From contig CAUJNA010001247.1 in NCBI GenBank assembly GCA_963377175.1, positions 525,606 to 589,605 of the forward strand: a DNA stretch of 64,000 nucleotides, written 5' to 3'. The notes under the pieces were generated by a model. That model searched no databases, was not told where the DNA came from, and saw nothing but the letters and a program-made list of their open reading frames with translations. The number at the start of each line of letters is the position of its first letter. The stretch's first letter is position 1. The position numbers and the translations under genes are program-made. Shown here piece after piece: positions 12,402 through 64,000 of the stretch. The DNA comes from Effrenium voratum. Its lineage: Eukaryota; Sar; Dinophyceae; Suessiales; Symbiodiniaceae.

Positions 12402-12486
12402 ATGCAGAGCGGGTTTGAGCCGCTGGCCGCAGAGGTGAAGCCCTTGCTGCTGCATGAATCGGTGGAGCTGCTGATGCAGGTTGGAG
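12402..12486 (+). CDS. rsmH: rsmH exon 1 (N-terminal block)
   Basis: Encodes [18 protein letters not shown], matching the family's N-terminal HxPVLLxE helix. Methionine 12402 is the nearest in-frame start before the conserved part, but the frame stays open upstream to 12,204, so an upstream exon or acceptor is possible. The donor is a non-canonical GA (AG|GAGTCC), phase 1. Confidence 0.7.
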
Positions 12487-29430: not shown

Positions 29431-29474
<44 letters not shown>

Positions 29475-29569
29475 TTTTCTTTCTTTCTCTCTGTCTCTCT
29501 TTCTCTCTGTATTTCTTTCTCTCTTTGTCTCTTCCTCTCTTTTTCTCTTTCTCTCTTTCTGTCTTTGTC

Positions 29570-29624
<55 letters not shown>

Positions 29625-35600: not shown

Positions 35601-38600
35601 TCTGATTCATCGATTCATTGACTCGTTGATTCATCGATTCAATGAACTCGTATGAATTCATCATTCATTGACTCGGTGATTCATCGATTCATTTGACTCG
35701 TTTGATTCATCGATTCATTGCTCGTATTGATTCATCGATTCATTGACTCGTTGATCATCGATTCATTGACTCGATGATTCATCGATTCATTGACTCGTTT
35801 GAATCATCGATTCATTGACTCGTTGATTTCGAGCGATCATTGACTAGTTGATTCATCGATTCATTGACTCGTTGATTCATCGAAATTCATTGGAACTAGT
35901 GATTCATCGATTCATTGACTCGTTGAGTCATCGATTCAGTGACTCGTTTTGAATCATCGATTCATTGACCTCTTTGATTCATCGATTCATTGACTCGTTG
36001 ATTCATCGATTCATTGACTCGTTGATCACGATCATTGACTCGTTGATTCATCGATTCATTGACTCGTTGATTCATCGATTCATCTGACACGTGATTCATC
36101 GATTCATTGACTCGTTGATTCATCGATTCATTGACTCCTTTGCTTCATCGATTCATTGACTCGTTGATTCTTCGATTCATTGACCGTTGATTCATCGATT
36201 CATTGACTCGTTGATTCATCGATTCATTGACTCGTTGATTCATCGATTCATTGACTCGTTGATTCATCGATTCATTGACTCGTTGATTCATCGATTCATT
36301 GACTCGTTGATATGTCATCGATTCATTGACCTCGTTGATCTCATCGATTCATTGAACCCTCGTTATTCATCGATTCATTGACTCGTTGATTCATCGATTC
36401 ATTGACTCGTTGATTCATCGATTCATTGACTCGTTGAATCATCGAGTCATTGACTCGTTGATTCATCGATTCATTGACTCGTTGATTCATCGATTCATTG
36501 ATTCGTTGATTCACGATTCATTGATTCGTTGAATTCATCGATCATTGACTCGTTGATTCATCGATTCATTGATTCGTTTATTCATCGATTCATTGACTCG
36601 TTGATTCTCGATTCATTGACTCGTTGATTCATCGATTCATTGACTCGTTGATTCATCGATTCATTGACTCGTTGATTCATCGATTCATTGACTCGTTGAT
36701 TCATCGATTCATTGACTCGTTGATTCATCGATTCATTGACTCGTTGATTCATCGATTCATTGACTCGTTGATTCATCGATTCATTGACTCGTTGATTCAT
36801 CGATTCATTGACTCGTTGATTCATCGATTCATTGACTCGTTGATTCATCGATTCATTGACTCGTTGATTCATCGATTCATTGACTCGTTGATTCATCGAT
36901 TCATTGACTCGTTGATTCATCGATTCATTGACTCGTTGATTCATCGATTCATTGACTCGTTGATTCATCGATTCATTGACTCGTTGATTCATCGATTCAT
37001 TGACTCGTTGATTCATCGATTCATTGACTCGTTGATTCATCGATTCATTGACTCGTTGATTCATCGATTCATTGACTCGTTGATTCATCGATTCATTGAC
37101 TCGTTGATTCATCGATTCATTGACTCGTTGATTCATCGATTCATTGACTCGTTGATTCATCGATTCATTGACTCGTTGATTCATCGATTCATTGACTCGT
37201 TGATTCATCGATCATTACTCGTTGATTCATCGATTCATTGACTCGTTGATTCATCGATTCATTGACTCGTTGATTCATCGATTCATTGACTCGTTGATTC
37301 ATCGATGACTCATCATCGATTCATTGACTCGTTGATTCATCGATTCATTGACTCGTTGATTCATCGATTCATTGACTCGTTGTTTCATCGATTCATGACT
37401 CGTTGATTCATCGATTTCATTGACATCGTTGATTCCATCGATTCATTGACTCTTGATTCATCGATTCATTACTGTTGATTCATCGATTCATCTGACTCGT
37501 TGATTCATCGAGTCATTGACTCGTTGATTCATCGATTCATTGACTCTTTGATTCATCGATTCATTGACTCGTTATGCATCGATTCATTGATTCGTTGATT
37601 CATCGATTCATTGATTCGTTGATTTCATCGATTCATTGACTCGTTGATTCATCGATTCATTGACTCGTTGATTCATCGATTCATTGACTCGTTGATTCAT
37701 CGATTCATTGATTCGTTGATTCATCGATTCATTGATTCGTTGATTCATCGATTCATTGACTCGTTGATTCATCGATTCATTGATTCGTTGATTCATCGAT
37801 TCATTGATTCGTTGATTCATCGATTCATTGACTCGTTGATTCATCGATTCATTGACTCGTTGATTCATCGATTCATTGAACACGTTGATTCAATCGATTC
37901 ATTGACTCTTTGATTCATCGATCTCATTGATTCTTGATACATCCGATTCATTGATTCCGTTGATTCATCGATTCATTGCTCGTTGTTTCATCGATTCATT
38001 GATTCTTGATTCATCGATTCTTGATTCGTTGATTCATCGATTCTTGATCGTTGATTCATCGATTCATTGACTCGTTGATTCATCGATTTCATTGACTCGT
38101 TGATCATCGATTCATTGACTCGTTGATTTATCGATTCATTGATTCGTTGAATTGTTGATTCAGTGATTCGTTGATTCAAATCGATTCAATGATTCGTTGA
38201 TTCATCGATTCATTGATTCGTTGATTCATCGATTCCATTGACTCGTGATTCATCGATTCATTGGACTCGTGTGATTCATCGATTCATTGACTCGTTGATT
38301 TACGATTCATGATTCGTTGATTCATCGATTCATTGATTCCGTTGATTCATCGATTCATTGACTCGTTGATTCATCGATTCATTTGACTCGTTGATTCATA
38401 GATTCATTGACTCGTTTGATTTATCGATTCATTGATTCGTTGATCATCGATCATTGATTCGTTTGATTCATCGATTCATTGATTCGTTTGAATCATCGAT
38501 CATTGACTCGTGAATTCAACGATTCATTGACATCGTTGATTCATCGATTCATGGACTCGTTGATTCATCGATCCATTGACTCGTTGATTCATCGATTCAT

Positions 38601-41600
38601 TACTCGTTATTTATCGATTCATTGATTCGTTGATTCATCGATTTCATTGATTCGTTGATTCATCGATCATTTGACTCGTTGATTCATCGTTTCTTGACTC
38701 GTTGATTTATCGATTCATTGTTTCGTTTATTCATCGATTCATTGAGTCGTTGATTCATCGATTTCATTGATTCGTTGATTCATCGATTCAATTGATTCGT
38801 TGATTCATCGATTCATTGACTCCGTTGATTCATCGATTCCATTGACTCGTTGATTCATCGATTCTTGACTCGTTGATTCATCGATTCATGACTCCGTTGA
38901 TTCATCGATTCATAGACTCGTTGATTCATCGATTCCAATTGACGCGTGGATTCATCGATTCATTGATTCGATGAATCATCGATTCATTGATTCGTTTGAT
39001 TCATCGATTCATTTGATTCGTTGATTCATCGATTCATTGATTTCGTTGATTCATCGATTCATTGACTCGTTGATTCACGATTCATGACTCGTTGATTCAT
39101 CGATTCATTGATTCGTTGATTCAATCGATTCATTGATTCGTTTGATTCATCGATTCATTCATGCATTGATTCATCGTTCATTGATTCTCAGATTCTCACC
39201 TTCATCGATTCGTTGATTATCGATTCCATTGATCGTTTGATTCCTCGATTCATTGACTCGTTGATTTATCGATCATTGATTCGTTGATTCATCGATTCAA
39301 TGATTCGTTGATTCAACGTTCATTGATTCGTTGATCATCGATGTCATTGACTCGTAGATTCCACGATTCATTGACTCCGTTGATTTATTCGATTCATTGA
39401 TTCGTTTAATCATCGATTCATTGACTCGTTGATTCATCGATTCATTGATTTGATTCGATTCATTGATTCGTTTCATCGATTCATTGATTCGTTGATTCAT
39501 CGATTCTTTGATTCGTTGATTCATCGATTCATTCGTTGATTCATCGATTCATTGACTCGTTGATTCATCGATTCATTGATTCGTTGATTCATCGATTCAT
39601 TGATTCGTTGATTCATCGATTCATTGATTCGTTGATTTATCGATTCGTGATTCATCGATTCATTGATTCGTTGATTCATCGATTCATTGACTCGTTGATT
39701 CATCGATTCATTGACTCGTTGATTTATCGATTCATTGATTCGTTGATTCATCGATTCATTGATTCGTTGATTCATCGATTCATTGATTCGTTGATTCATC
39801 GATTCATTGATTCGTTGATTTATCGATTCATTGACTCGTTGATTCATCGATTCATTGATTCGTTGATTCATCGATTCATTGACTCGTTGATTTATCGATT
39901 CATTGACTCGTTGATTTATCGATTCATTGATTCGTTGATTCATCGATTCATTGATTCGTTGATTCATCGATTCATTGACTCGTTGATTTTCGATTCATTC
40001 GTTGATTTATCGATTCATTGATTCGTTGATTCATCGATTCATTGATTCGTTGATTCATCGATTCATTTCGTTGAATCGATTCTCGTTGATTATCGATTCA
40101 TTGATTCGTTGATTCATCGATTCATTGATTTTATCGATTCATTGACTCGTTGATTTATCGATTCATTGATTCGTTGATTCATCGATTCATTGATTCGTTG
40201 ATTCATCGATTCATTGACTCGTTGATTTATCGATTCATTGACTCGTTGATTTATCGATTCATTGATTCGTTGATTCATAGATTCATTGGTTGATTGATTT
40301 GATTTGACGTTGATTTGGAACATATTTGTTTAAATTTTGATTTGATTTGACTGGTTTGCTTTGTTTTGATTTGGTTGTTTGGTTTGGTTGGGTTGGGTTG
40401 GGTTGGGTTGGGTTGGGTTGGGTTGGGTTGGGTTGGGTTGGGTTGGGTTGGGTTGGTTGGGTTGGGTTGGGTTGGGTTGGGTTGGGTTGGTTGGTTGCTT
40501 AGTTGCTTGGCTACTTTGCTGCTTGGCTGGTTCGTTGGCTTGAATTGACTTGGTTTGTTTTTGTTTTGTTTTGGTTTGATTTGGATTGATGTGAAGGTCT
40601 ATGGTCCTTTCCTTCCTGGTTCTCAGCAGGGACCCATGAGCCATTCCTTATGCTTTTCTAGGGGATCCAGTGGTTTTTTGGAATCCCCCTATTGATTCCT
40701 TACTGACTGAGAACCAACAAGTTTTGGGAGGAACTCTTGCCGGCCTGATGGAAGTTGACACTCATCAAGCACGCTGAGTTGACACGTCCGACTCAACCCA
40801 CAGCAGAACCTCATTTGTCAAACCTTTTAAAACTTGGACACACAGGTGTCCTTTTTGGTTGTTTTGTTAGACAGTAGATGGCCCTGGTTGACCTGGTTGT
40901 TTCATTATCTACCAGGGCCATCTATGTTCCCAAAATTGACAAACTTGAAACTTGGACAACCAGAAAAAGCAGGGTCTTTCTACCACCCCAGTTTTGTTTG
41001 AGGTCCGCCTCCTGCTTTCAGGTGAAGCGCTTTCTGCGGGAGCACGAGGCCCCGGACCTGCGCTTTGCGGCCTTTGTGACGCCCAGGCCGACCAAAATCG
41101 GTTGCTGATTTGGGTGTGTCTTTTTTCAGAGAACCCCCCCCCTCCCAAAGTGGTGCTTTCCTTTTTGGTGTTCCTTCAAAACTATTAAGAAAAGGGGGCC
41201 CTCAAAAATGGGCAGCCCCATTTGCACCATTGGTCGCGTTGTTTCCCAGGACGCCCCTTGAGATTCAAGGGAAGTGAACTTTCCGTCCTACTGCGGGTGG
41301 ACAAAATGCGCTTCACACCACTTGGGATAGATGAAACCCTATACATAAAGGAATAAACCACCCACCAATCCAATTGGTGCCGGATTTTGTCCATCCACAT
41401 TATGTCCATCATGTTGCTTTGACTCACTTGCCCAAAGCGAATCGGCCCAACGGACCGTTTGATTTGAGAACAGTTTTGGTCGAGTCATGGCCCCAAAGCG
41501 TGATGGTCTTTTGTTTTTACGTCTGGTTCAAAGGGAAGACAAATGGACCACATCTCATTTCGGGAGTCAGATTTTTGAGACACACCCCAGTGGCGAAGGG

Positions 41601-48716: not shown

Positions 48717-48966
48717 ACTCGGCCTCCTCTCCTCTCCTCCTCCACCCCCTCCCTCTCCGCTCCTCCCCCTCCTTCTCTCCTTCTCTCCTTCCTTTCCTTT
48801 CCTTTCCTTCCCTTCCCTTTCCTTCCCTTTCCTTTCCTTCCCTTCCCTTCCCTTTCCTTCCCTTCCCTTTCCTTTCCTTCCCTTCCCTTCCCTTTCCTTC
48901 CCTTCCCTTCCCTTCCCTTCCCTTTCCTCTTCCTCTTCCTCTTCCTCTTCCTCTTCCGCTTCCTCT

Positions 48967-49007
<41 letters not shown>

Positions 49008-49790
49008 CTCTTCCTCTTCCTCTTCCTCTTCCTCTTCCTCTTCCTCTTCCTCTTCCTCTTCCTCTTCCTCTTCCTCTTCCTCTTCCTCTTCCTTTCTTCC
49101 TTTCTTGCTTCCTTGCTTCCTTGCTTCCTTGCTTCCTTGCTTCCTTGCTTCCTTGCTTCCTTCCTTCCTTGCTTCCTTGCTTCCTTGCTTCCTTGCTTCC
49201 TTGCTTCCTTGCTTCCTTGCTTCCTTGCTTCCTTGCTTCCTTGCTTCCTTGCTTCCTTGCTTCCTTGCTTCCTTGCTTCCTTGCTTCCTTGCTTCCTTGC
49301 TTCCTTGCTTCCTTGGCTTCCTTGCTTCCTTGCTTCCTTGCTTCCTTGCTTCCTTGCTTCCTTGCTTCCTTGCTTCCTTGCTTCCTTGCTTCCTTGCTTC
49401 CTTGCTTCCTTGCTTCCTTCCTTCCTTCCTTCAATCCTTCCTTCCTTCCTTCCTTCCTTCCTCCTTCCTTCCTTCCTTCCTTCCTTCCTTCCTTCCTTCT
49501 TCCTTCCTCTTCCGCCTTCCTGCCCTGCTCTTTCGCCTTGCTTCATGCTTTCATTCCTTCGTTCCTCCTTGCCTGTCCTGCTTTTCTCCTTCTCTTCCTC
49601 CTTGCCATTTCTCCTTTGTAACTCCTCCCTGTCTTCCCTCTCTGCTTTAATTCCTTTCTTCACTTCCCGTCTTCCCTTCTTTTCTTCTTCCCTTCTTTTC
49701 TTCTTTTCTTCTTCCCTTCTTTCCTTCCCTTATTCCTTCCCTCCCTGCTCCTTCTCTGCCTCTCTTTCTGCTCCTCCTCGTCTATTCCCG
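48717..49790. repeat. 1-kb pyrimidine tract (CTTCC, TTCCTC, CTTGCTTC)
   Basis: Ordered blocks of (CCTTT/CCTTCC)n, then (CTCTTC)n, then a homogeneous (CTTGCTTC)n run (about 49,110-49,415) and (CTTC)n. The 350-residue frames over it are artefacts. Confidence 0.95.
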
Positions 49791-53751: not shown

Positions 53752-53767
53752 GCCATTTTGGCTCAAG
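53752..53767 (+). other. Relic dinoflagellate spliced-leader sequence
   Basis: GCCATTTTGGCTCAAG is identical to the last 16 bases of the 22-base leader that dinoflagellates trans-splice onto nuclear mRNAs (recalled sequence ends GTAGCCATTTTGGCTCAAG). Upstream bases no longer match. It lies 78 bases before the ATG of an intronless GC-rich frame. A genomic leader at the 5' end of a gene is the known mark of a reverse-transcribed, reinserted mRNA. Confidence 0.8.
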
Positions 53768-53845
53768 CTTTGCCCTGGGTTCTCTGAACCCAACTTGTGT
53801 GAAAAATTTGAGGTGAATCACTTCCGAACTAACCCCGAACCAGCA

Positions 53846-56800
53846 ATGGCCTCCTCGGCAACCTCGGCAACTTCCTTCGAGCTGATTGAGGACCAGACGC
53901 TCACTGCGGAGGAGGTGGAAATGGCCAGCCAGGCGGCCCAGGAAATCCGCACACGCGAGGCGGCAGTGGCGGCCGGCCTGGTGTTGGACGAGCCCGAGGC
54001 CCCCCCGTCGGCTTCGGCCACCGACGTGATGAACGACCTCTCCAGTGCACTGGAGCGTCTCCGTGTGGCTTTCTCCACACCGACTTCCGGCTTGGGTGCC
54101 CCTGGCCCCGCCGATGAGGAGGACCAGGACATGGACGATGCGGACGCCACGGAGAAGGCTACTCCACCAACGAAGAGGCTGAAGGGTTTCGTGGCGGCTT
54201 CCCAGAAGACCTCGGCTCCGGTGAACAAACCGGTCTCCCTTGTGCCGGTGGAGGGCCGTCCTGGCTACTTCAAGTTAGTGGACCTCCCCGACCTCTTCCC
54301 GGTCCTTCCGGCATCGGCGGCCACGTTGCTGAGGGACGTCACGGTGGAGGAGGCGGTCTCCCTGTTCCACAAGTTTGTCGGGAAGAACCTCACGGAGGAC
54401 TTGGTGATTCGCATCCTGGAGGCCTATGTTCCGATGAAGATCCAGATCCGGCAGGAGGAGGTCTGGGCCTCACAGTTCCAGAGGAACAAGGCGTGCATTG
54501 GCACCCAGCGGATGCACAGACTCAATGCCGGCCACTCAGACTACAAATTCATGTGCAAGGCGTGCGGCACGGGGTGGCCGGAGGCAGCCAATCAATGCTG
54601 GGTCTGCCCGGGCAAGGAGTTTGTCCCCTTCCAGGCACCCTCGGCTACCTACAAGGCGGACGGCGTCACTTACAACCTGCTCATTGTGGAGGGCAAGCCG
54701 ACCTGCTGGGAAGAGCCCCTCCGAAAACGGACACGGCAGAGGAGATCACCATGGCAGACGTGGTCCCGCTTAACAGGCGGGTGGACATCCGGCAGGAGAT
54801 CCTGTCCATGGAGGCGGACGACAAGGCGTTGAAGGTCCGGGAGCGCCAGGAGGTCAAGGTCAAAGTGCAGCGGTCCCTGCAGGAGGCAGAGGCTCAGAGC
54901 TTCCAGCTCTACCACCCCCAGGTGGACCAGGCGATCCGGAAGAAGGGCCTTGAGGGAGCACCGAGCCGACCCCGGAGGAGTCCTCGGCCAGGCGGCGGCA
55001 CAAGGAGCTGGTCACGGATGAGATGCTGGACAATGAGATGGCTATCCTGGCGCCTCTCCAGGAGGGCATGCAGGCCCTGCCGTCAGAGGAGGTGGCCAAT
55101 GAGGGAGGTCAACCTGGAGCGATTCAAGGCCAAGCTGAGAGACCAGTATCTGGAGGGGAAGGGCGTTGACGCCAGCCAGGCACTGGCTGAGGCCATGGGC
55201 TCCATCCAGGAGGCGCAGGAGGCGAACAAGCGCACCCAGGACACCAACCAGGCATGGATGCTCAACCACACCCGCAAGCCCTTGGAAGTGTCGGCGTGGC
55301 CGGATGATCTCAGGAAGGCTCTGGAGAGGGGGCTGTTCTGCCCCCTGGAGCTGGATGACCCCGAGGACATCCCCAACGTGGGGGACATGAAGGAGAAGTA
55401 TGTCCCCTACATCCGGAGGCTCAGAGAGGCGCAGAACCCATGGAACCAGGAGGCGCTGCTGGAGGAGATGCCCGATCTGGCGACGCCGGCCCCCTATCAA
55501 GGGTGCCACTGGCCCCGGGGGGGACCAGTCAATGCCACCGCAGGACCTGGACTCGGAGGAGGGCAAGTTGTCCCTGCTCCTCTGGGCGATGAAGAGGCAC
55601 CAAGGGGAGCTGCGGATGTTTGGGGGGATCTGGAAGAAGCACTCCAGCGGTGAGATCCCCAAGGGCGCGGACCAGCAATTCAAGCTCACGCCGGAGGAGC
55701 TCCTGGCCCTGGAGCGCAGGACGCACCCGCTCACGTGTGAGCGGGACCACATCGACCCAATCATCTACTCGGCCTTGGAGATCCGAGCGCAGGTGAACCG
55801 GGGCGAGCGCCCGGCGCCGGAGCAGGTGGTGGGGATCTTCTGGGCGAAGGGCGATGGAGTGTTTTGGACGAGGCAGACGAGAACGTGGGACCTGCCGAGC
55901 TTGACGGGGGTGTACGCCCACAGATTCACCTTCAAGTACATCTACTCGGCCTGGACCACATTCCCGCTGGTCGTGAAGACGCAGCGACGGGGCCGCAATG
56001 CGGAGGGCTCGGCCTCGGATAAGTGGATGGGCAACATCCTCCAGATGAGGAAGGAGGCGGTCCCCTTCCTGGAGAGCCTGGGCATCCCCAAGCCGAGCAA
56101 CAAGGCGGAATGGAGCTACATCTTCAAGGAGATGGGGACGTTTCTGGCGGCCAAGAATTTCATCGTTAACTGCCCATTGCCGGTGATGGAGATCCCGGTT
56201 GCCCCCGTCCACGACAGCAAGGAGGCGTTGCGCTTCCGGGCGGTCTGTGACGAGCGAATCACCCTTCCGCTGTCATCGCTGAGGGCTTGTACACCAAACT
56301 TGTGTCGGGCCTGAGTAAGTCCTCCATGGTGGAGGTCAAGGTCAACTGGCGCTGCAACGTGGTCCATGACTGGGTGGAGCAGGTCCCGCAGGAGGCGGCG
56401 GGGGCCCTGTATGACCGGCTGGGCTACTCCCAGGACATGATCAGGCAGATGGGTTGCTCCCCCCCCTTGGGTGCCTCTGGCCCCGGGGGCGGAGCGGCTA
56501 AGGAATCGGACCCCAAGGCCAAGATTCTGGGGGGAGCGGACACCACGCTCCGCACGCCGGACCAGGGTACCAGGCAGTACCCTCCGATCACCGCGTCCAC
56601 GGTCACGGCGGTTGCGGGCCGGAAGTACATCAACAAGCACTTCCCGAAGGAGACGAAGCACGTGTTTTGGGCCTCCGTGGAGTGTGGGCAAGGAGAAGTT
56701 CAAGACCACCGGAGGCTACATGTGCAGGTTCTGCAGCAACTGGCTCACGGAGAGCACGGCAGATGTCTACGTGCGGGAGAAGCGCAACGTGGTTGTGGAG

Positions 56801-57435
56801 ATCTGGGGCCAGGTAGCGCAGAAGGTCCCCAACCTGAACCTCGGGCCAGGCAGGGAACGCATGAATCACCCGGACTGGGCGGACCCGCTCCCGCCGCCAG
56901 CGGTGGACATCACGGACGCAGGACCGGAGGGCCGCGAGGACCAGACCGAAAAGGAAGGGGAGGCACCCCCTTCGGTACCCTCTGGGAGCGCGCCATCGAC
57001 CCGCTCCTGGTCAGTGGTGGAGCACGGGCCCGAGGACACACCAGTCAAGGCGAAGGACCTGTTTCCCGCCACACCGGACCTCCCCCTTCGGGTGGTGGCG
57101 GCGGTCAAGCGCACAGGCAACGCCGGCCAGTCCAGAATCCACCTGCTGAATGTCGAAGGCACGGCTGTGGGGTGTGGTTGGCGACCGGCGGCTTCCAAGG
57201 TCCAGGAGCTCTCGGTGCTAGACTACATGACGGAGCAGGAGGCCTATGGCAAGTGCGAACGCTGCTTCAAGAGGCATGGCTTCCCGGCGGACTGGGCACT
57301 GGAACCGGCGGAGGTCCCCACGCTACAGGAGGACTCGGACTCCTCGACGGACTCGGGCTCTGAAACGGATGACTCGGTGGACACCCAGTCGGAGACCGAG
57401 GTGGTGGCCCTACCGTTGGTAGCCCAGGTGCCCCC
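53846..57435 (+). pseudogene. Intronless GC-rich retrogene, frameshifted, unknown function
   Basis: Starts at ATG 53,846 and reads MASSATSATSFELIEDQTL. Continuous coding character over about 3.6 kb (roughly 1,190 residues) requires frame changes near 54,725, 54,955, 55,100, 55,510, 56,290 and 56,690. Visible parts: an acidic, disordered N-terminus; a RanBP2-like zinc knuckle with CKAC then CWVC ten residues apart (near 54,555-54,610); a charged coiled-coil-like middle; a Trp/Tyr-rich region with WAKGDGVFWTRQTRTWDLP; a second CRFC cysteine pair (near 56,725); a Ser/Asp/Glu-rich C-terminus. I recognise no enzyme, reverse transcriptase or gag signature. High third-position GC and lack of introns, with the relic leader upstream, favour a retrocopy of a host mRNA. 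The 3' end runs into the AT-rich viral segment, so it is probably truncated there. Confidence 0.65.
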
Positions 57436-57486
57436 AAAAAATAGTAAAAGGAGAATTCAAAGAATTATTCTTTCTACTATTTTTTT
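57436..57486. other. Imperfect 23-bp palindrome at the host/virus composition boundary
   Basis: The left arm AAAAAATAGTAAAAGGAGAA and right arm TCTTTCTACTATTTTTT pair with few mismatches around an AATTC centre. It sits exactly where GC-rich sequence stops. It may be a viral end, a terminator or a recombination junction. Confidence 0.6.
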
Positions 57487-57896
57487 CCAACAGCAACACA
57501 ACAAACAGAAAACAAAATCCAGAACAACAAGCAAACAAAATAAATAATCACAACCAGCAACAAAAATATTTAATCACAGCATGCAACATTAAATAATTCA
57601 AACAAGCATACCAACAAAACAGCAACACTCTAAATCATCAAAGAACCCAAACTCAAAAACACACATCAACAAAAAACAAAGCAACATACCAACAAAAAAT
57701 ATCACAAGAGCATCAAACAAAACAAAAACAAACAGCCAAAGCACGAAAAAATTGAAGAAGCATGCCAAGTCTAAACAACGCACTTTGAAAGAGATAAGCA
57801 AATTATAATAATTCAATCTTTACAAACGATAAATATATTACAATTATAACATATAATAGTTTACATGTGATAATCATAGTATGAGTAAACCTGTTT
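57487..57896. other. A/C-rich viral-side spacer
   Basis: Low-complexity CAACA/AAACA DNA up to about 57,790. The minus-strand frame at 57,598-57,816 (72 residues, nearly all hydrophobic Phe/Leu/Val/Cys) follows from that composition; a small membrane protein cannot be excluded. Confidence 0.4.
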
Positions 57897-58319
57897 TCAG
57901 TGTTTCCAGTCGCCTATGTTGTTCCAAGAACTGCTCAAAATGTTTCTGATATTATACCAGATTAAGTTAACGTCATAATCTTTCATTGGTGCTCTTTGTT
58001 GTATTAAATAACGCAACACTGATAACAAAGTATAATAATTACAATGCATTGTTGTCATTCCTCCTCTTTCATTAATACTATTACCATTACGTTTAACGAG
58101 TTCTTCTTTCATTATGTTTTCGTAAATCTCTTTTATCCATTGATGATTTTGTTCTCCATACTCAGCGAACATATCTGGATATATATCTTTCATTGTTTTA
58201 TCGTTTTTAATTATTTCAATGACTTGTTTATACGATGGATAGGGATTATCCTTAATGAAACTCAATATTATCTTTCTATCCAGTTCCAGCTCTTTTTCTG
58301 TCACTCCTATCATTGGCAT
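57897..58319 (-). CDS. Hypothetical viral protein, 140 residues
   Basis: I do not recognise the family. The protein starts MPMIGVTEKELELDRKIILS, is charged in its first half (DNPYPSYKQVIEIIKND), and has a second half rich in Tyr, Trp and Asn (NYYTLLSVLRYLIQQ). It looks soluble and mostly helical, with no signal peptide or membrane span. Codon use is AT-rich like its neighbours to the right and unlike the host gene to the left. It is the last gene before the host boundary. A direct repeat of about 45 bp flanks it on both sides. Confidence 0.75.
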   Translation of the reverse strand: MPMIGVTEKELELDRKIILSFIKDNPYPSYKQVIEIIKNDKTMKDIYPDMFAEYGEQNHQWIKEIYENIMKEELVKRNGNSINERGGMTTMHCNYYTLLSVLRYLIQQRAPMKDYDVNLIWYNIRNILSSSWNNIGDWKH

Positions 58320-58537
58320 TTTCCTCTTATTATATTAAGTCTTTATTCCTTTAAGTCATTTTACATTATAATTATAACATATAAGGGTATAAATGTTATA
58401 ATCATAGTATGGTTTTAAAAACTCATGTCTCAAGACAGATAATAATACTGCTGTCCTAAGGATTGTTCTATTCCATTTAGCAGTATACCACTTGACTGAA
58501 AACAGTAGACCACTTTACTGAAATCAAAATCCTTAAT

Positions 58538-58652
58538 CCACCAAAATCAGTGATTTCACCACCAAAATCAGTAATTTCACCACCAAAATCAGTGATTTCA
58601 CCACCAAAATCAGTGATTTCACCACCAAAATCAATAATTTCACCACTATCAG
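58538..58652. repeat. 21-bp tandem repeat, about five units
   Basis: The unit core is CCAAAATCAGTGATTTCA; single-base variants (GTAATTT, AATAATTT) mark individual units. ATCAGTGAT makes each unit partly self-complementary. It lies in the longest non-coding gap of the viral segment. Confidence 0.95.
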
Positions 58653-58680
58653 TTCAATAGTTGCACCAGAACCGGTAGCC

Positions 58681-58936
58681 ACACACACACACCAATACCG
58701 CTAGCCGCACACACCAATACCGCTAGCCGCACACACCAATACCGCTAGCCGCACACACCAATACCGCTAGCCGCACACACCAATACCGCTAGCCGCACAC
58801 ACCAATACCGCTAGCCGCACACACCAATACCGCTAGCCGCACACACCAATACCGCTAGCCGCACACACCAATACCGCTAGCCGCACACATCAATACCGCT
58901 ACCACACACACCAATACCGATGGACATACACACCAA
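58681..58936. repeat. 22-bp tandem repeat, about eleven units
   Basis: The core CACCAATACCGCTAGCCGC repeats with almost no variation until the last two units. It is GC-richer than its surroundings and directly follows the 21-bp array. There are no spacers, so it is not CRISPR. Such arrays in small viral genomes may be replication or regulatory sites. Confidence 0.95.
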
Positions 58937-58990
58937 TTTGGCATGTATTCATTTTGGCTGGGTTTTCAAGTTTCAAGCCCAACCCCAAAC

Positions 58991-59605
58991 TTAATCCACC
59001 AAACTCACCAAGATTTCACAAATTAATTCGCTAGGTATTTTATATAGGTCTTCCTGTTTATGTATTGTTGGATTGTCTCCCCATTTTTCCTTGTTTCCAT
59101 TTGGCAGTCTCTGCGCAGTTTCAATATGTCTATTATTCCTGATGTTACCACAATCCTTTTTACATAAATCTCTAGGTTTCCAAGTTGTAATGTTATTCCA
59201 GAGCCTAGTGCGTTTTCTGTAAGGCATTCCATATTTACAATAATCAACATCTTTAAATTCAAACTCATCCATAAACTCCTGATGTTTTAATAATCCAGTT
59301 TGTGGATTTTCGATTACAAAATATTTAGGATTGAAATATTTGATAATCTCAATAGTTTTTAAGACAATACTATTTGCATATTCGATATTCCTAATTCCCC
59401 TAGTTTTTGCTACACTGTATTCAGTGCATGGGGGACTACTCCAAATAAAATCAAAATGGTTTCTGTCAAACTGTTTGTAATCCCACTCCAAAATATCAGT
59501 GTTGATATCAGCATTTTTCAAGTCTAATGATATCACATTAAATCCAAGCGACTTTGCTATGGTTCCGACGCTTTTTGTTCCGCTAAATAATTCTAATAAA
59601 TTCAT
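58991..59605 (-). CDS. Dcm-like DNA (cytosine-5) methyltransferase, short form
   Basis: The 204 residues carry the C5-methyltransferase order of motifs. Motif I, LLELFSGTKSVG (residues 3-14), binds S-adenosylmethionine. Motif IV, SSPPCTEYS, holds the catalytic Cys60. Motif VI is VIENPQTG with Glu99. YRKRTRLW (129-136) resembles motif VIII, and IPSELICEIL near the C-terminus resembles motif X. It is shorter than bacterial enzymes (usually over 300), with little room for a target-recognition domain, as in many phage and viral relatives. It probably methylates viral or host DNA; target unknown. The start ATG lies 5-15 bases after two TCTA motifs and 25 bases from the preceding gene's stop. Confidence 0.88.
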   Translation of the reverse strand: MNLLELFSGTKSVGTIAKSLGFNVISLDLKNADINTDILEWDYKQFDRNHFDFIWSSPPCTEYSVAKTRGIRNIEYANSIVLKTIEIIKYFNPKYFVIENPQTGLLKHQEFMDEFEFKDVDYCKYGMPYRKRTRLWNNITTWKPRDLCKKDCGNIRNNRHIETAQRLPNGNKEKWGDNPTIHKQEDLYKIPSELICEILVSLVD

Positions 59606-59607
59606 TT

Positions 59608-59623
59608 ATTAGAATTATTTAGA
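59608..59623 (-). promoter_or_regulatory. TCTA promoter-like motif (two copies) for the methyltransferase
   Basis: Reads TTATCTAAATAATTCTAATA just before the ATG on the minus strand. Two TCTA tetramers lie in an A/T-only context. Confidence 0.5.
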
Positions 59624-59630
59624 TAATTAA

Positions 59631-59962
59631 TTATTCAAATAATACATATACTCCATCATCATTTTTTGAAATTTTGTAAAATTCTAAAGTGGTGCTTTTA
59701 GGTTGTTTGATTTTTCCTGTATTCAACATATCACAGTATTTCTTTTGCTTTGTAGGGTAGTCGCCCGATGGTCTTCCTATAGATTTTGCTTGAAATATCT
59801 TTTCGATTTCTCCTTCTCTTCGTTGCTTTGTTGTTCGCGTTCAACTGGTTTCATTTTGTCATCAATGGATTTAATCATATCATTTAAGGTTTTGATATTT
59901 TTACCAATTAATGTTATCTTCTTCATTAAATCATTAATAGTGTAATTCTCATTTTCAGACAT
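59631..59962 (-). pseudogene. Small basic viral protein, one frameshift
   Basis: The N-terminal frame (MSENENYTINDLMKKITLIG, helical, likely coiled coil) stops at 59,777. The -1 frame is open from about 59,830 and continues with AKSIGRPSGDYPTKQKKYC and ends YKISKNDDGVYVLFE at 59,631, just before the methyltransferase gene. The two parts together fill the gap between neighbours, so they are probably one gene of about 108 residues, broken or read by a -1 shift near 59,795-59,815. The basic GRPSGDYP stretch recalls DNA-binding AT-hook cores, but this is weak. Family unknown. Confidence 0.6.
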
Positions 59963-59977
59963 TACTATATATTTATT

Positions 59978-59981
59978 TAGA
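59978..59981 (-). promoter_or_regulatory. TCTA promoter-like motif
   Basis: AATTATCTAAATAAATATAT lies 16-19 bases before the ATG at 59,962, in the same context as the methyltransferase motif. Confidence 0.5.
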
Positions 59982-59992
59982 TAATTATTTAT

Positions 59993-60325
59993 TTAATTAT
60001 ACGTTTTATTATATAATTTACCTGAATAATTTAATGTTATATATGTAAATAAATTATATTCTAAGAGTCTTTCACCAATTTTATTTTTCAATTGTATTAA
60101 ACCTTCATCGTTACCTGTAATTTCAAAAAACTTCAACATTTTATCAAATTTATCTGGTTTAGTTATACCTTTCATAAAATATTTATTGTTAAATTTAGCA
60201 TCTAACCAATAAAAATATTCTATACTCAATTGCCTAGCAAAGTTTTTATCACCATCGAATAGGTCTTTAATTTCTTCATCGTCAAAAGTTATAATTCTAT
60301 GGTCTTGTCCATTCATAGTTGGCAT
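59993..60325 (-). CDS. Hypothetical viral protein, 110 residues
   Basis: Unrecognised. Starts MPTMNGQDHRIITFDDEEIK and contains an acidic stretch followed by aromatic-rich segments (EYFYWLDAKFNNKYF) and a C-terminal helix-strand region ending in NYSGKLYNKTYN. No membrane segment or metal ligands. It lies 30 bases upstream of the next minus-strand gene. Its leader ATATAATCATAATGCC is shared with the gene at 61,705. Confidence 0.75.
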   Translation of the reverse strand: MPTMNGQDHRIITFDDEEIKDLFDGDKNFARQLSIEYFYWLDAKFNNKYFMKGITKPDKFDKMLKFFEITGNDEGLIQLKNKIGERLLEYNLFTYITLNYSGKLYNKTYN

Positions 60326-60343
60326 TATGATTATATAAATAAT

Positions 60344-60347
60344 TAGA
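60344..60347 (-). promoter_or_regulatory. TCTA promoter-like motif
   Basis: AATATCTAATTATTTATATA lies 19-22 bases before the ATG at 60,325. Confidence 0.5.
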
Positions 60348-60414
60348 TATTTATTTAAATATTTATTTATTTATATTTATAAAGTGCAATTATGTTAAAT
60401 CTACTCTTTAAATA

Positions 60415-60777
60415 CTAATTTTTCATGATTTGTTTAACAGTTTCCTGAGTTTCGTTTTCATTATTATCGGTTGGTGTTGCTTGCCTACCAAATTTAAAAG
60501 TTATACTATGGACATCAGTTTCTAAGTTGATACTGTCTTTAGTTTTATCAATACTCATTTTCTTATCATTTTTACTTATTTTGAAACTTGTTGGAATACA
60601 TGAACATTTACATGTTTTATTATTTTTTATTTCTAATTCATTTTTAAGTTCTAACATCTTTTTGCACATAGGACAAGCAATCTCAAATACTGATGTTTCT
60701 TTAACAATTTCTCCGCTATCTTCTGTTGAAGAAACACTTAAACCTGTCTTATTCTTTTTGTTTTTCTTTTTTGGCAT
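60415..60777 (-). CDS. Zinc-ribbon-like viral protein, 120 residues
   Basis: The lysine-rich N-terminus (MPKKKNKKNKTG) could be a nuclear signal. Two cysteine clusters follow: CPMC at residues 35-38 and CKCSC at about 56-60, spaced like a four-cysteine zinc ribbon. The remainder is charged, with a Thr/Asn/Glu-rich tail. It may bind nucleic acid or another protein; the specific family is not recognised. Its 5' end overlaps the 3' end of the next upstream frame. Confidence 0.75.
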   Translation of the reverse strand: MPKKKNKKNKTGLSVSSTEDSGEIVKETSVFEIACPMCKKMLELKNELEIKNNKTCKCSCIPTSFKISKNDKKMSIDKTKDSINLETDVHSITFKFGRQATPTDNNENETQETVKQIMKN

Positions 60778-60937
60778 TTATATTAGCATTTATATTTTTA
60801 ATATATTGTATCAAAAACTTAATTAATTCTAAAATAAAATAACATATTTTTTTACATCTATTATCAGTTATTAGTACTTGTTCTATATTCTCCATTTCAT
60901 CTATTATATTAATATAATCTGTATAACTCCTTTTCAT
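60749..60937 (-). CDS. Small hypothetical protein, 62 residues, possible membrane helix
   Basis: Contains a hydrophobic run CYFILELIKFLIQYI near residues 31-45 and a basic end. Its 3' end overlaps the zinc-ribbon gene by 29 bases. It is the only candidate for the 60,778-60,937 stretch and has a TTATCTTATTAT leader like the gene upstream, which favours it being real. Confidence 0.55.
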   Translation of the reverse strand: MKRSYTDYINIIDEMENIEQVLITDNRCKKICYFILELIKFLIQYIKNINANINAKKEKQKE

Positions 60938-61116
60938 ATTAAATAATAAGATAAATTATTTTTCATTTCTGTCTTTCTTTTCCTGTAAAGTTTTTTCATT
61001 GTATCGTCTTTATTCCATATGAATTTTACAAATTTCTGATGATGTTTTGAATTTAGATGTTTAAATAAATATTTGTCATCATAAGTTTTACAACAATTGC
61101 AATGGATAACAGTCAT
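60934..61116 (-). CDS. C2H2-type zinc-finger protein, 60 residues
   Basis: CNCCKTYDDKYLFKHLNSKHH near the N-terminus has ligand spacing C-x2-C-x11-H-x5-H, like single U1/matrin-type C2H2 fingers that bind RNA or DNA. A basic tail (KKLYRKRKTEMKNN) follows. The stop overlaps the next gene's start by four bases, typical of tight viral packing. Confidence 0.72.
   Translation of the reverse strand: MTVIHCNCCKTYDDKYLFKHLNSKHHQKFVKFIWNKDDTMKKLYRKRKTEMKNNLSYYLI
60943..60954 (-). promoter_or_regulatory. TTATCTTATTAT leader motif
   Basis: The same 12-mer occurs before the ATGs at 60,937 and 61,116, six and four bases from the start codon respectively. Confidence 0.5.
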
Positions 61117-61119
61117 ATA

Positions 61120-61131
61120 ATAATAAGATAA
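61120..61131 (-). promoter_or_regulatory. TTATCTTATTAT leader motif
   Basis: Second copy of the 12-mer, directly before the zinc-finger gene. It resembles the TCTA motifs with one base changed. Confidence 0.5.
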
Positions 61132-61149
61132 AATAATTATTTAAATTAT

Positions 61150-61357
61150 TTAATCTTATTATTTTCATGCATGATAGAATATTCGGAGGGCACAGCACTT
61201 GGGGTTTTCATTGCACGCGAGAGAGATACAAACTAATTAGCTTCAATGCTTACTGATTGAAGCAATGGAAACCTGTTCCATTATGTTATTCACCGCCACT
61301 CATAACATAATGATGGTCGCGTTAGCACGCGAGGCTCGTTCCTCGCGTCCATTAATA
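61150..61357. ncRNA. Candidate structured non-coding RNA with three hairpins
   Basis: No frame crosses this patch, which is clearly GC-richer than all viral genes around it. Three perfect stems occur in a row: GCTTCAAT/ATTGAAGC (61,240-61,263), CATTATGTTAT/ATAACATAATG (61,279-61,312) and ACGCGAGG/CCTCGCGT (61,327-61,348). GCACGCGAG occurs twice (61,213 and 61,325), which would allow alternative pairing with CCTCGCG. The strand is unknown. It is not a tRNA: no T-arm or acceptor stem is seen. Confidence 0.5.
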
Positions 61358-61705
61358 TTAAATAGAATATTTATTTAAATTATTTTCTTTAGTAAGTTTT
61401 AATGCAGTTGGTATATCAACATCTAGAATATTATTATTAATAATTTTTTGTACACCATTTATCATTTCATTTGTATATCTATCGGGATAATCTTTCATAA
61501 AATTCAATAATTTATTACAATTTAAAATATCCTCATTTTCGATTGATGATTTAGGTATTATATTTTTTTTGTTATTAATCATCGATAAAAACGTTAAAAT
61601 CGTATCATAATACATTTGGCCAGTCTCTGGAACTAAAACATCACCGAATTTATATATCGTCTGAATACTAATAACTTCATTTGGATTAATAGATATTCTT
61701 GGCAT
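61358..61705 (-). CDS. Hypothetical viral protein, 115 residues
   Basis: Unrecognised. Begins MPRISINPNEVISIQTIYKF and looks like a mostly helical soluble protein with Asn-rich stretches (ENEDILNCNKLLNFMKDYPD). Divergent from the packaging ATPase across a 62-bp A/T-only spacer. Its leader ATATAATCATAATGCC is shared with the gene at 60,325. Confidence 0.75.
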   Translation of the reverse strand: MPRISINPNEVISIQTIYKFGDVLVPETGQMYYDTILTFLSMINNKKNIIPKSSIENEDILNCNKLLNFMKDYPDRYTNEMINGVQKIINNNILDVDIPTALKLTKENNLNKYSI

Positions 61706-61767
61706 TATGATTATATAAATATTTATATATTTTTTTATTTATAAGTATTTATAATATTATTTTTATT
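61706..61767. promoter_or_regulatory. Divergent A/T-only promoter region
   Basis: 62 bp of almost pure A/T between two divergent start codons must hold both promoters. No TCTA is present, so these two genes may belong to another expression class than those with TCTA. Confidence 0.45.
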
Positions 61768-62535
61768 ATGCCTGATGTAAAACCAATTGATGAAATCAAA
61801 TATGACTTTAAGCAAAGTAAGCATGAGGTCGTCCCTAAATTGCCAATGAGAGCTATGATTGTCGGTCCATCTGGAAGTGGAAAATCAACTTTACTTGTAT
61901 CAATGATACTTGATATTTATAGAGGAGCATTTGAAAGAATTTTTATCTGGTCTCCATCTGTAAATTTAGATAGTATTTGGTTGCCTGTTAAAAAATACAT
62001 TAAAGAAGGTTTGAAAGTAGATAATGATAAAGAACCGTGTTGGTGGGATGAGTTCAATGTTGAAGATTTAGAAAGAGTTATAGAAACTCAAAATAAAATA
62101 ATTGAATACCAGAAAAAACAAGGAACGAAGAAATTATTTAATATTTTGGTAATTTTGGATGATGTATCTGATAATCCAGCAATAACAAGAAATAACAAAT
62201 TGTTAAATTCTTTATTTTGTAGAGGTCGTCATAGTGGAATATCAACACTTGTAAGTCTTCAAAAATCATCAACCGTACCACCAATTATTAGGGTAAATAT
62301 AAGTCATTTGTTTTATTATAAAGTTAGAAATTTTAAAGAGATAGAAATATTGCAAGATGAATTATCAGCAATTGTTAGAAGCGATAATTTACATGAAAGC
62401 AAGAAACTAATTTATAAAATATATGAGACTGCCACTGATGAACCGCATAGTTTTTTATATATTAACCTTTTAGAAAAGAACCCAGATAAAATGTTTATGA
62501 AAAAGTTTTCTCAATATTTGAAAATTACTAATTAA
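61768..62535 (+). CDS. A32-like DNA-packaging ATPase (FtsK/HerA superfamily)
   Basis: The 255 residues fit the usual 230-280 of viral packaging ATPases that pump dsDNA into capsids. Walker A is GPSGSGKST (residues 33-41), Walker B ILVILDD (126-132), followed by the family's RGRHSGIS segment (152-159, likely arginine finger) and SLQ sensor (163-165). It closely resembles the A32-type ATPases of nucleocytoplasmic large DNA viruses, virophages and polinton-like viruses. This is the strongest evidence that the segment is viral. The frame is intact and uses AT-rich codons. It heads the plus-strand pair with the next gene. Confidence 0.93.
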   Translation: MPDVKPIDEIKYDFKQSKHEVVPKLPMRAMIVGPSGSGKSTLLVSMILDIYRGAFERIFIWSPSVNLDSIWLPVKKYIKEGLKVDNDKEPCWWDEFNVEDLERVIETQNKIIEYQKKQGTKKLFNILVILDDVSDNPAITRNNKLLNSLFCRGRHSGISTLVSLQKSSTVPPIIRVNISHLFYYKVRNFKEIEILQDELSAIVRSDNLHESKKLIYKIYETATDEPHSFLYINLLEKNPDKMFMKKFSQYLKITN

Positions 62536-62576
62536 ATAATTAAATAATTAAATAATTAAATATATATTAATATTAT
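62536..62576. repeat. AATTAAATAATT short tandem repeat between plus-strand genes
   Basis: Four units of AATTAAAT/AATAATTA follow the ATPase stop and lead into the next start. Probably part of the promoter of the following gene. Confidence 0.6.
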
Positions 62577-63065
62577 ATGATATTTTATGATTTACCAATA
62601 GAAATTAAAGACATAGTATTATCTTATAGTTTAGGCGATGTTAGATTATTAAAAATAAAAAATAATAATATTATTAAAAATTATATTAATAAATTTAAAC
62701 CAGTATATAAGTCTTACAAATTAAATAACCTAGATTGTTTTGAAATTGATAATATCAATATTAATAATGGATTATCATATGTTTTTAATTTAAGTGAGTT
62801 AGATAAATTACATAAAATATATACACCATTAAATTTATTAATTGAATATGGGTTAATTATTACATCTACATCATCTAAATGTTTGAATCAAGATCGTTTT
62901 CGTACTATAACATCAAATAATTTATTTGATATTTATTATTATCTTAATAAATATCTTTATGAAATTGAATTAGTGTATAATGATAATATGGTTAATTTTA
63001 TTTCATTACAAGTAAAAAAAATAACTATTAAAGTCATCAATGATGACTTTTATAAATATTTTTAA
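62577..63065 (+). CDS. F-box-like N-terminal viral protein, 162 residues
   Basis: Starts MIFYDLPIEIKDIVLSYS, the LP-x-EI-x-x-I pattern of short F-box-like helices common in large DNA viruses, where such proteins can recruit host ubiquitin ligases. The rest is Asn/Ile/Tyr-rich, with no zinc ligands or ankyrin repeats recognised. It follows the ATPase by 42 bp on the same strand. The stop codon lies inside a perfect hairpin. The F-box reading is an inference from about 18 residues. Confidence 0.72.
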   Translation: MIFYDLPIEIKDIVLSYSLGDVRLLKIKNNNIIKNYINKFKPVYKSYKLNNLDCFEIDNININNGLSYVFNLSELDKLHKIYTPLNLLIEYGLIITSTSSKCLNQDRFRTITSNNLFDIYYYLNKYLYEIELVYNDNMVNFISLQVKKITIKVINDDFYKYF

Positions 63066-63108
63066 ATTAATAATATTAATATATTTTTTGTAATATTATT
63101 AATTTAAA
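63061..63108. terminator. Perfect 18-bp hairpin between convergent genes
   Basis: TTTAAATTAATAATATTA (63,061-63,078) and its exact complement (63,091-63,108) enclose a 12-base loop. It overlaps the plus-strand stop codon and ends two bases before the minus-strand stop. This is the expected position for a bidirectional 3'-end signal, as with hairpin-directed transcript ends in mimiviruses. Confidence 0.75.
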
Positions 63109-63110
63109 AT

Positions 63111-63323
63111 TCAAAATAATGAATACGAACAGAGATTGAGAGCAGGTAATTTATATATTAATTTGTCACATTTAGTTGCCTCTAGTTTTTCTAATCGTTC
63201 ACTCACTTGCTTAATTGCTTTCAACTGTAATTTATCAATATTACTTAAATCTAATTTTTCTATATCAATATCATTAATTTTATCAATAGATGAAGTTTCA
63301 ACATTACTATTTGAATTACCCAT
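63111..63323 (-). CDS. Small viral protein with myristoylation-like N-terminus, 70 residues
   Basis: MGNSNSNVETSS fits the N-myristoylation consensus (Gly2, Ser6). A charged amphipathic helix follows (DIEKLDLSNIDKLQLKAIKQ), probably a coiled coil. If modified, the protein would associate with membranes. No family recognised. Confidence 0.68.
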   Translation of the reverse strand: MGNSNSNVETSSIDKINDIDIEKLDLSNIDKLQLKAIKQVSERLEKLEATKCDKLIYKLPALNLCSYSLF

Positions 63324-63338
63324 TATATATTATTTATT

Positions 63339-63342
63339 TAGA
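63339..63342 (-). promoter_or_regulatory. TCTA promoter-like motif
   Basis: ATAATCTAAATAAATAATAT lies 16-19 bases before the ATG at 63,323. Confidence 0.5.
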
Positions 63343-63355
63343 TTATAATATAATA

Positions 63356-63413
63356 CAATAATAAATATTCAAAGATATGCCATACAATAATAAATATTCA
63401 AAGAGATATGCAA
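63356..63413. repeat. Direct repeat of ~28 bp at the end of a viral gene
   Basis: AATAATAAATATTCAAAG followed by ATATGC occurs twice in tandem (starting near 63,356 and 63,385). The duplication contains the stop of the minus-strand gene and adds a few residues to its C-terminus. Confidence 0.75.
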
Positions 63414-63698
63414 AGGAATTAGAATAGGCCAACAAAAAACCCACGCAATAGGAGCACATATTTTATCACACTTCACCACTCGTCTGTCAAATTCCTCTTC
63501 TCTTCTTTGTCTTTTTAATTCTTTAATTTTTTCATCAAATTTAGAATGACTAAAATCACATTCTTTATTATTACATTTATCTAATGTAAATTCATCTTTA
63601 TTTAATTTAGTAATTTTACAACCACAATAACAAATTTTTTCTCTCATACTATCATTCTTAAATAATACTTCTATTTTAACTTTTCTGTCAATGTCCAT
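63369..63698 (-). CDS. Cysteine-rich viral protein with C-terminal membrane segment, 109 residues
   Basis: CYCGC near residues 23-27 and CNNKEC near 40-45 could form a zinc ribbon. A highly charged helix (KIKELKRQRREEEFDRR) follows, then a hydrophobic end (APIAWVFCWPILIPLHISL) that looks like a tail anchor. No family recognised. Confidence 0.7.
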   Translation of the reverse strand: MDIDRKVKIEVLFKNDSMREKICYCGCKITKLNKDEFTLDKCNNKECDFSHSKFDEKIKELKRQRREEEFDRRVVKCDKICAPIAWVFCWPILIPLHISLNIYYCMAYL

Positions 63699-63707
63699 AT
63701 ATATATC

Positions 63708-63711
63708 TAGA
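63708..63711 (-). promoter_or_regulatory. TCTA promoter-like motif
   Basis: ATATATCTAGATATATATAT lies 10-13 bases before the ATG at 63,698. Here the motif is a palindromic TCTAGA. Confidence 0.5.
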
Positions 63712-63772
63712 TATATTAATTATTTATTTATTTATTTATTTATTTATATATTTATATATTTTTATATTTAAA

Positions 63773-64000
63773 TTATTTATTTTTTTCTTTTTTAAATTCC
63801 TTAATTTCTTTTTCAAGTTTATCTACTTTATCATTTAATTCTAATACTGCTTTATGAACTAACACGGGTAAAACTAAATAATTTAATCCTAAATACTCTC
63901 TGTCTTTACTAACAACATTTTCAAATTCTTTCGGGATTGCTTTTAATACTTCATCTGCTATATATCCTATATGAGTTTTACCGCCATCATTTCTATCGTG
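63773..64000 (-). CDS. C-terminal S74 intramolecular chaperone domain of a fibre-like protein (partial)
   Basis: The last 75 residues of a gene that continues past the window edge. HIGYIADEVLKAIPKEFENV, then LGLNYLVLPVLVHKAVLEL and a final coiled coil, match the C-terminal half of peptidase S74 domains (G-x-I-A-E-V-x-x-x-x-P, then Y-x-x-L-x-x-x-x-x-x-A-x-x-E-L). Such domains fold and then cleave themselves from trimeric tail spikes and fibres of phages and are also found in eukaryotic dsDNA viruses. The catalytic Ser/Lys part would lie outside the window. Probably a receptor-binding surface protein. Confidence 0.82.
   Translation of the reverse strand, partial: HDRNDGGKTHIGYIADEVLKAIPKEFENVVSKDREYLGLNYLVLPVLVHKAVLELNDKVDKLEKEIKEFKKEKNK

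Follow-up and report, generated by a model that had tools for sequence, protein, structure and literature searches.

In a 64,000-nucleotide stretch of the genome assembly of Effrenium voratum (contig CAUJNA010001247.1, positions 525,606 to 589,605; the whole stretch is termed the window), positions 58,991 to 64,000, possibly from 57,436, very likely belong to an endogenous polinton-like virus (PLV) that is present in the nuclear DNA of dinoflagellates in many related copies. The part present is probably the left one. The window edge cuts the element, and at most one element end falls inside the window. An earlier note, made from the letters of the window, had proposed that part of an integrated small DNA virus lies here in dinoflagellate DNA. 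This proposal is supported by the grouping of a packaging ATPase with the protein Skav208681 and the viral contig L001, and by four contig sizes that are common to the lists of ATPase and methyltransferase relatives. The features on which the argument turns are as follows.

58,991..59,605, reverse strand: short C5 cytosine methyltransferase of 204 amino acids (PF00145, E=6.7e-10, above the cut-off; PHROG 757, 2e-15).
61,768..62,535, forward strand: A32-type genome-packaging ATPase of 255 amino acids (Pfam Pox_A32, E=1.8e-15, above the cut-off).
63,773..64,000, reverse strand: C-terminal 75 amino acids of a fibre-like protein with an S74 (chaperone of endosialidase) domain, in a frame that continues beyond the window.

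When 12 open reading frames (ORFs) of the AT-rich block were scanned with Pfam, two of them, the ATPase and the methyltransferase, pass the curated cut-off. Both had been named in the earlier note, as an A32-like packaging ATPase and a short Dcm-like methyltransferase, and both names hold. The ATPase is intact, with the Walker A (GPSGSGKS) and Walker B (ILDD) motifs both kept. A search for its homologues gives 200 proteins at E 0.001, and the figures that follow come from the best 120 of the 200. These include at least 20 clusters at 89% identity or more, all on separate contigs ranging from 18.6 kb to 1.24 Mb; the count is one of clusters among ENA records, not of copies in the genome to which the window belongs. 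The window ATPase is covered to 97% or more in eight of the 20 closest clusters and to 52-91% in the other 12. The partial ATPases in these 12 clusters suggest decay or partial gene models, and many copies may therefore be decaying.

The protein Skav208681, located at about 308 kb along an annotated scaffold (scaffold775), is 67% identical to the window ATPase. It belongs to a gene set whose prefix, 'Skav', we take to stand for the dinoflagellate Symbiodinium (Fugacium) kawagutii. Relatives at 45-55% identity are mostly on short contigs among the matches listed. The earlier note had called for an ATPase tree. In the tree of 36 rows, which includes ATPases of viral contigs but none of a named giant virus or a confirmed virophage, 12 rows group together with support 100/99. 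The window and Skav208681 are both among these 12 rows, and the larger set around them takes in L001. The ATPases of three further viral contigs, L005, L006 and L008, lie outside this wider group on long branches. Direct searches with the window ATPase give little: a single-sequence search of IMG/VR yields no confirmed match, a phage collection yields none at 1e-5, and the best PDB match by sequence (0.0055) covers only the P-loop region of a phosphate-loop protein. NCBIfam, searched with six window proteins, returns dcm and two P-loop families, all under the cut-off.

The PPC and EN motifs are both present in the methyltransferase, and its motif I reads SGTKSVG. At the K of this motif, G is found in 19 of 22 aligned rows; P0241 has K too. 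These motifs are read here in what we take to be their usual meaning in methyltransferases. A search for relatives gives 2,373 proteins at E 0.001, and of the best 120, which were listed, 94 are on contigs longer than 20 kb. When the sizes of the contigs in the two lists were compared (119 ATPase and 120 methyltransferase entries, with 46 and 94 distinct sizes above 20 kb), four are exactly equal: 152,949, 189,695, 510,517 and 1,236,176. About 0.008 such coincidences are expected by chance, assuming a log-uniform distribution of sizes. This result indicates that the ATPase and the methyltransferase are very probably on the same contigs in these four cases, though not provably adjacent. Five IMG/VR contigs also encode relatives of the methyltransferase, at 33-42% identity. 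In four of them (L005-L008) a relative of the packaging ATPase lies within 2.2 kb of the methyltransferase; L006 and L007 resemble near-copies of each other. No ATPase is seen in the fifth methyltransferase-matched contig, L004. In one data set, more than half of the PLVs and virophages are reported to have DNA methyltransferases (PMC7805220), and others are borne by retrotransposons of Symbiodinium (PMC5890265). A retrotransposon origin of the window gene, an idea taken from the latter paper, was set aside, because the gene lies inside the viral block, four contig sizes are common with the ATPase list, and viral contigs carry related genes close to ATPases.

An S74 fibre chaperone domain at the right edge, as claimed in the earlier note, is borne out by PHROG: the fragment matches 24 families at E up to 0.1 (best 5e-10), 19 of which are labelled tail, and where a family is long the matches fall at its C-terminal end. 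The Pfam match (E=0.007) is below the cut-off. Alignment of the fragment with the S74 part of the L001 fibre gives a score of 47, which is reached by one of 500 shuffles. The searches of the window against L001 had missed this fragment, which was found by direct alignment.

Two IMG/VR contigs, L001 and L002, match the ATPase alignment. L001 (IMGVR_UViG_3300028392_002905, 17.4 kb) is the nearest viral contig, and its ATPase is 45% identical to that of the window over 243 aligned positions. It also encodes an rve integrase (Pfam 6.4e-8) and an S74 fibre (8.6e-6), both above the cut-off, as well as a GIY-YIG protein. A protein of 1,286 amino acids looks like PolB by eye only; Pfam gives two other weak matches for it, under the cut-off. 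The structure of a 477-amino-acid protein that has no Pfam match was modelled (mean pLDDT 72.4). Compared with PDB structures, the model matches double-jelly-roll capsid proteins, that of PBCV-1 among them (E from 1.3e-17, TM-scores of about 0.5-0.6), and it matches viral capsid models too, so that this protein is predicted to be a double-jelly-roll capsid protein. Searched by sequence, it has no match in PDB up to E 1, and in IMG/VR its relatives are confined to its own contig.

L002 (84 kb) encodes, at 9012-14756, an A32 ATPase match inside a longer open frame and a candidate minor capsid protein. Its rve match (1.3e-6) is just under the Pfam cut-off, and a pairwise comparison of the same protein with the L001 integrase gives E=7e-8. 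Another L002 protein is similar to one of L001 over 38 N-terminal residues (E=0.001). L002 is perhaps a PLV integrated in a chromosome. The ATPases of L005-L008 score 37-47 bits against the family profile, as compared with 377 bits for that of L001. The L001 capsid profile has a weak match in L005 (E=1.4e-6), and Pfam gives nothing informative for nine other proteins of L005, L006 and L008.

The limits of the block were examined by its composition. A likelihood fit over 55,500-58,500 places the change point in G+C at 57,435. The G+C content is 0.637 at 53,753-57,435, 0.349 at 57,436-58,990, 0.308 at 58,991-59,962 and 0.227 at 59,963-64,000, and its mean over 1-53,752 is 0.469. The earlier note had described a composition unlike that of the host. 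The sharp break at 57,435 agrees with this description, but the step is exaggerated, because the DNA directly to its left is unusually GC-rich for the rest of the window. The note had also placed a compact gene block at 57,436-64,000. Compact AT-rich genes do run to the window end, but they start at about 58,991 and not at 57,436. The G+C content at third codon positions is 0.30-0.35 in the leftmost three ORFs and 0.09-0.21 in the other ten. The gaps of a few tens of bases that had been reported are found for most, but not all, of the 12 ORFs from 58,991 on: seven of the 11 gaps measure 30-89 bases, two are overlaps and two are longer (171 and 241 bases).

Between the break and the first of these genes, and within the block itself, two further stretches are as follows.

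57,436..58,990, no strand: AT-rich low-complexity left margin with 21-base and 22-base tandem repeats and one ORF of 140 amino acids.
61,184..61,361, no strand: GC-richer stretch of 178 bases with an exact 10-base repeat, ATAGAATATT, on both sides (61,174-61,183 and 61,362-61,371).

The left margin is possibly a terminal region of the element, or else separate repeat DNA. Its two tandem arrays lie side by side (21-base units at 58,538-58,646 and 22-base units at 58,686-58,937, with 95-96% matches) and could be part of a terminal repeat. In addition, a 50-base repeat with 86% identity (57,834-57,883 and 58,362-58,411) flanks the 140-amino-acid ORF. The GC-richer stretch is predicted to form hairpins, and its fold is somewhat more stable than those of shuffled sequences (z -1.99; five of 200 shuffles are as good). 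It lies between viral genes and is possibly the result of a small insertion. Exact-pattern scans of IMG/VR find neither this stretch nor the 22-base repeat. Rfam gives five matches at 57-64 kb with E up to 5, all under their gathering scores; the best of them, Gut-1 RNA (35.7 bits, as compared with 50 needed), sits on the 21-base tandem repeat and was rejected as an artefact. A tRNA scan of 53-64 kb finds none.

The remaining ORFs of the AT-rich DNA are as follows.

57,897..58,319, reverse strand: ORF of 140 amino acids without a family; its membership of the element is uncertain.
59,777..59,962, reverse strand: small ORF of 61 amino acids with weak coiled-coil-like matches only.
59,993..60,325, reverse strand: ORF of 110 amino acids without a family.
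60,415..60,777, reverse strand: ORF of 120 amino acids with a CxxC...CxC pattern, a possible zinc ribbon; a CpXC match is under the cut-off, and none is found at 0.01.
60,749..60,937, reverse strand: ORF of 62 amino acids that overlaps both neighbours.
60,934..61,116, reverse strand: ORF of 60 amino acids with a C2H2-like pattern by eye and no Pfam match.
61,358..61,705, reverse strand: ORF of 115 amino acids, divergent from the ATPase gene, without a named family.
62,577..63,065, forward strand: ORF of 162 amino acids, the F-box-like protein of the earlier note.
63,111..63,323, reverse strand: small ORF of 70 amino acids without a Pfam match.
63,369..63,698, reverse strand: ORF of 109 amino acids with Cys pairs and a sub-threshold match only.

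Two labels given to these ORFs in the earlier note find little or no backing. The supposed F-box-like protein has no Pfam match, and its single-sequence fold is unusable (pLDDT 28.8), so that the label is unsupported rather than excluded. The supposed zinc-finger proteins show Cys/His patterns by eye alone, with Pfam matches that are sub-threshold or absent.

The DNA to the left of the break bears on the identity of the host, by way of the following feature.

53,753..53,767, forward strand: spliced-leader relic CCATTTTGGCTCAAG, an exact 15-base match to what we take to be the dinoflagellate spliced leader.

This relic supports a dinoflagellate host. When two mismatches are allowed, at least one match to the leader occurs in 25 of 100 shuffles; the match at 53,753 is itself exact. 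For the leader at its full length of 21 bases, no match is found even with three mismatches allowed. From this point to 57,435 the DNA is GC-rich and coding-like, and its long open frames switch back and forth between two of the forward frames. It is taken as host DNA, perhaps a decayed copy of a host gene that was retroposed. Pfam finds nothing in nine host frames, including four forward frames and one reverse frame of this region, and no direct repeats of eight bases or more are found around it. The host part of the window also contains an 8.9-kb tandem array with an 8/24-base unit (31,408-40,299) and long pyrimidine arrays (29,105-30,095 and 48,787-49,742).

Taken as a PLV, the element has an ATPase that appears akin to that of a PLV, although the PLV reference, L001, was itself classified in this analysis. 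Its G+C content is distinct from that of the host and its layout is compact. The ATPase clusters on distinct ENA contigs are what a family with multiple copies in host chromosomes would give. The ancestor would have been a small DNA virus that reached the nucleus and was inserted there by the integrase it encoded. Packaging of the genome into a double-jelly-roll capsid would be driven by the ATPase. Attachment of the particle to a host cell would fall to the fibre, for which S74 would act as the chaperone of trimerisation, and the methyltransferase would label the viral DNA so that it escapes nucleases or silencing by the host. Several results weigh against this assignment. No capsid, penton, protease, polymerase or integrase is recognised among the window proteins by the Pfam and PHROG scans; the earlier note had expected capsid, penton, protease and replication genes to the right of 64,000. 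No terminal inverted repeat is found in the window, where only AT-rich inverted repeats of up to 52 bases occur. Beyond the ATPase and S74 domain, L001 has no convincing match to any window ORF (E 0.01). Finally, among the best 120 of 607 matches to the L001 capsid protein, none is on a contig longer than 15.1 kb and none is a dinoflagellate capsid relative.

These gaps leave some room for other explanations. The block could instead be a piece of an integrated giant virus, either of Nucleocytoviricota or of a mriyavirus-like relative, since giant viruses also have A32 ATPases and may have C5 methyltransferases in AT-rich genomes. The top Pfam match of the window ATPase is Pox_A32, the ATPase of another dinoflagellate PLV is reported to show affinity to Mininucleoviridae (PMC12721341), and the window stops before any capsid gene. 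However, the nearest ATPase with a readable context is in a contig of only 17.4 kb that carries an rve integrase and an S74 fibre, and S74 is common in PLVs (PMC12220804). By this indirect evidence, a giant-virus origin is improbable. A mavirus-like virophage is likewise an improbable source. Capsid genes resembling those of mavirus have been reported from two Symbiodinium genomes (PMC10120064), and relatives of the methyltransferase lie near ATPases in L005-L008, the layout of which is virophage-like to the eye. However, the ATPases of these contigs are only remotely related by their bit scores, the three placed in the tree fall outside the group of the window, and L005-L008 are themselves unconfirmed as virophages. 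With that limit on the references, a PLV is preferred to a virophage.

The junction might also be an assembly chimera or contamination, in which a contig of a free virus has been joined to dinoflagellate DNA. The composition break is sharp and the margin is low-complexity DNA, as such an error might leave. However, near-identical ATPases in at least 20 clusters on distinct long contigs, and a relative deep within an annotated scaffold, are what integrated elements would give, and a chimera is improbable.

The upstream regions of the genes were examined for a common box, at 11 start codons to the right of 59,000; the omitted start at 58,319 has no box. A TATCTWA-like box starts 14-24 bases before the start codon in seven of the 11 genes, namely as TATCT at -14 to -24 in six and as AATCTA at -20 in the seventh. 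The TATCT count is reached by 26 of 2000 shuffles, and that of ATCTWA (6/11) by 16 of 2000, but all these motifs were chosen after looking. ATCTA, in five genes, is reached by 321 of 2000 shuffles. TCTA, which was known beforehand, occurs in five of the 11 genes as compared with a dinucleotide-shuffle mean of 4.9, and is thus not enriched. On the opposite strand TCTA, ATCTA and TATCT are each found in one of the 11. A TCTA box is believed to make mavirus, a virophage, responsive to its giant virus (PMC8547959). The TATCTWA-like box of the window resembles this TCTA box, although the test for TCTA itself is negative. It is conceivable, if doubtful, that the elements form a dinoflagellate-specific PLV lineage whose genes have a common promoter box at a near-fixed distance and whose integrated copies act as a defence triggered by giant viruses. 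If the box is real, what wakes these elements becomes testable.

Among viral contigs, the closest to the PLV proposed here is L001, which has an ATPase of the same family and an S74 fibre gene downstream of the ATPase on the opposite strand, but in which no methyltransferase of this family was found. L005-L008, which are virophage- or PLV-like, have instead a member of the methyltransferase family (33-36% identity) close to a packaging-ATPase relative, but their ATPases are merely distant relatives. The retrotransposon methyltransferases of Symbiodinium (PMC5890265) are likewise multicopy, of the C5 type and on dinoflagellate mobile elements. Compared by description, they are carried by LINE and DIRS retrotransposons, whereas the window gene is short and located within a viral block.

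Elements of this kind are already in print, and that of the window is a further example, not a new kind of thing. With it, the known small DNA viruses of dinoflagellate genomes gain a clade of ATPase and methyltransferase genes that is found on many long contigs, and two marker proteins become available by which copies can be counted and dated. Polarella glacialis is reported to contain 2,535 capsid genes; the same paper describes a 'Dino' capsid group and drops in G+C at insertion boundaries (PMC10120064). S74 domains are described as ubiquitous across the PLVs of most eukaryotic groups, with mention of PLVs of Symbiodinium and Polarella (PMC12220804), and Maverick elements are reported to be enriched at domain boundaries in Breviolum (PMC11071213). 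Oxyrrhis marina contains PLVs (OmPLV) that encode an A32 ATPase (PMC12721341). As far as the descriptions in these papers allow a comparison, the elements of Polarella glacialis and Symbiodinium and OmPLV are, like that of the window, integrated, often multicopy small DNA viruses of low G+C content, and OmPLV shares with it the A32 ATPase.

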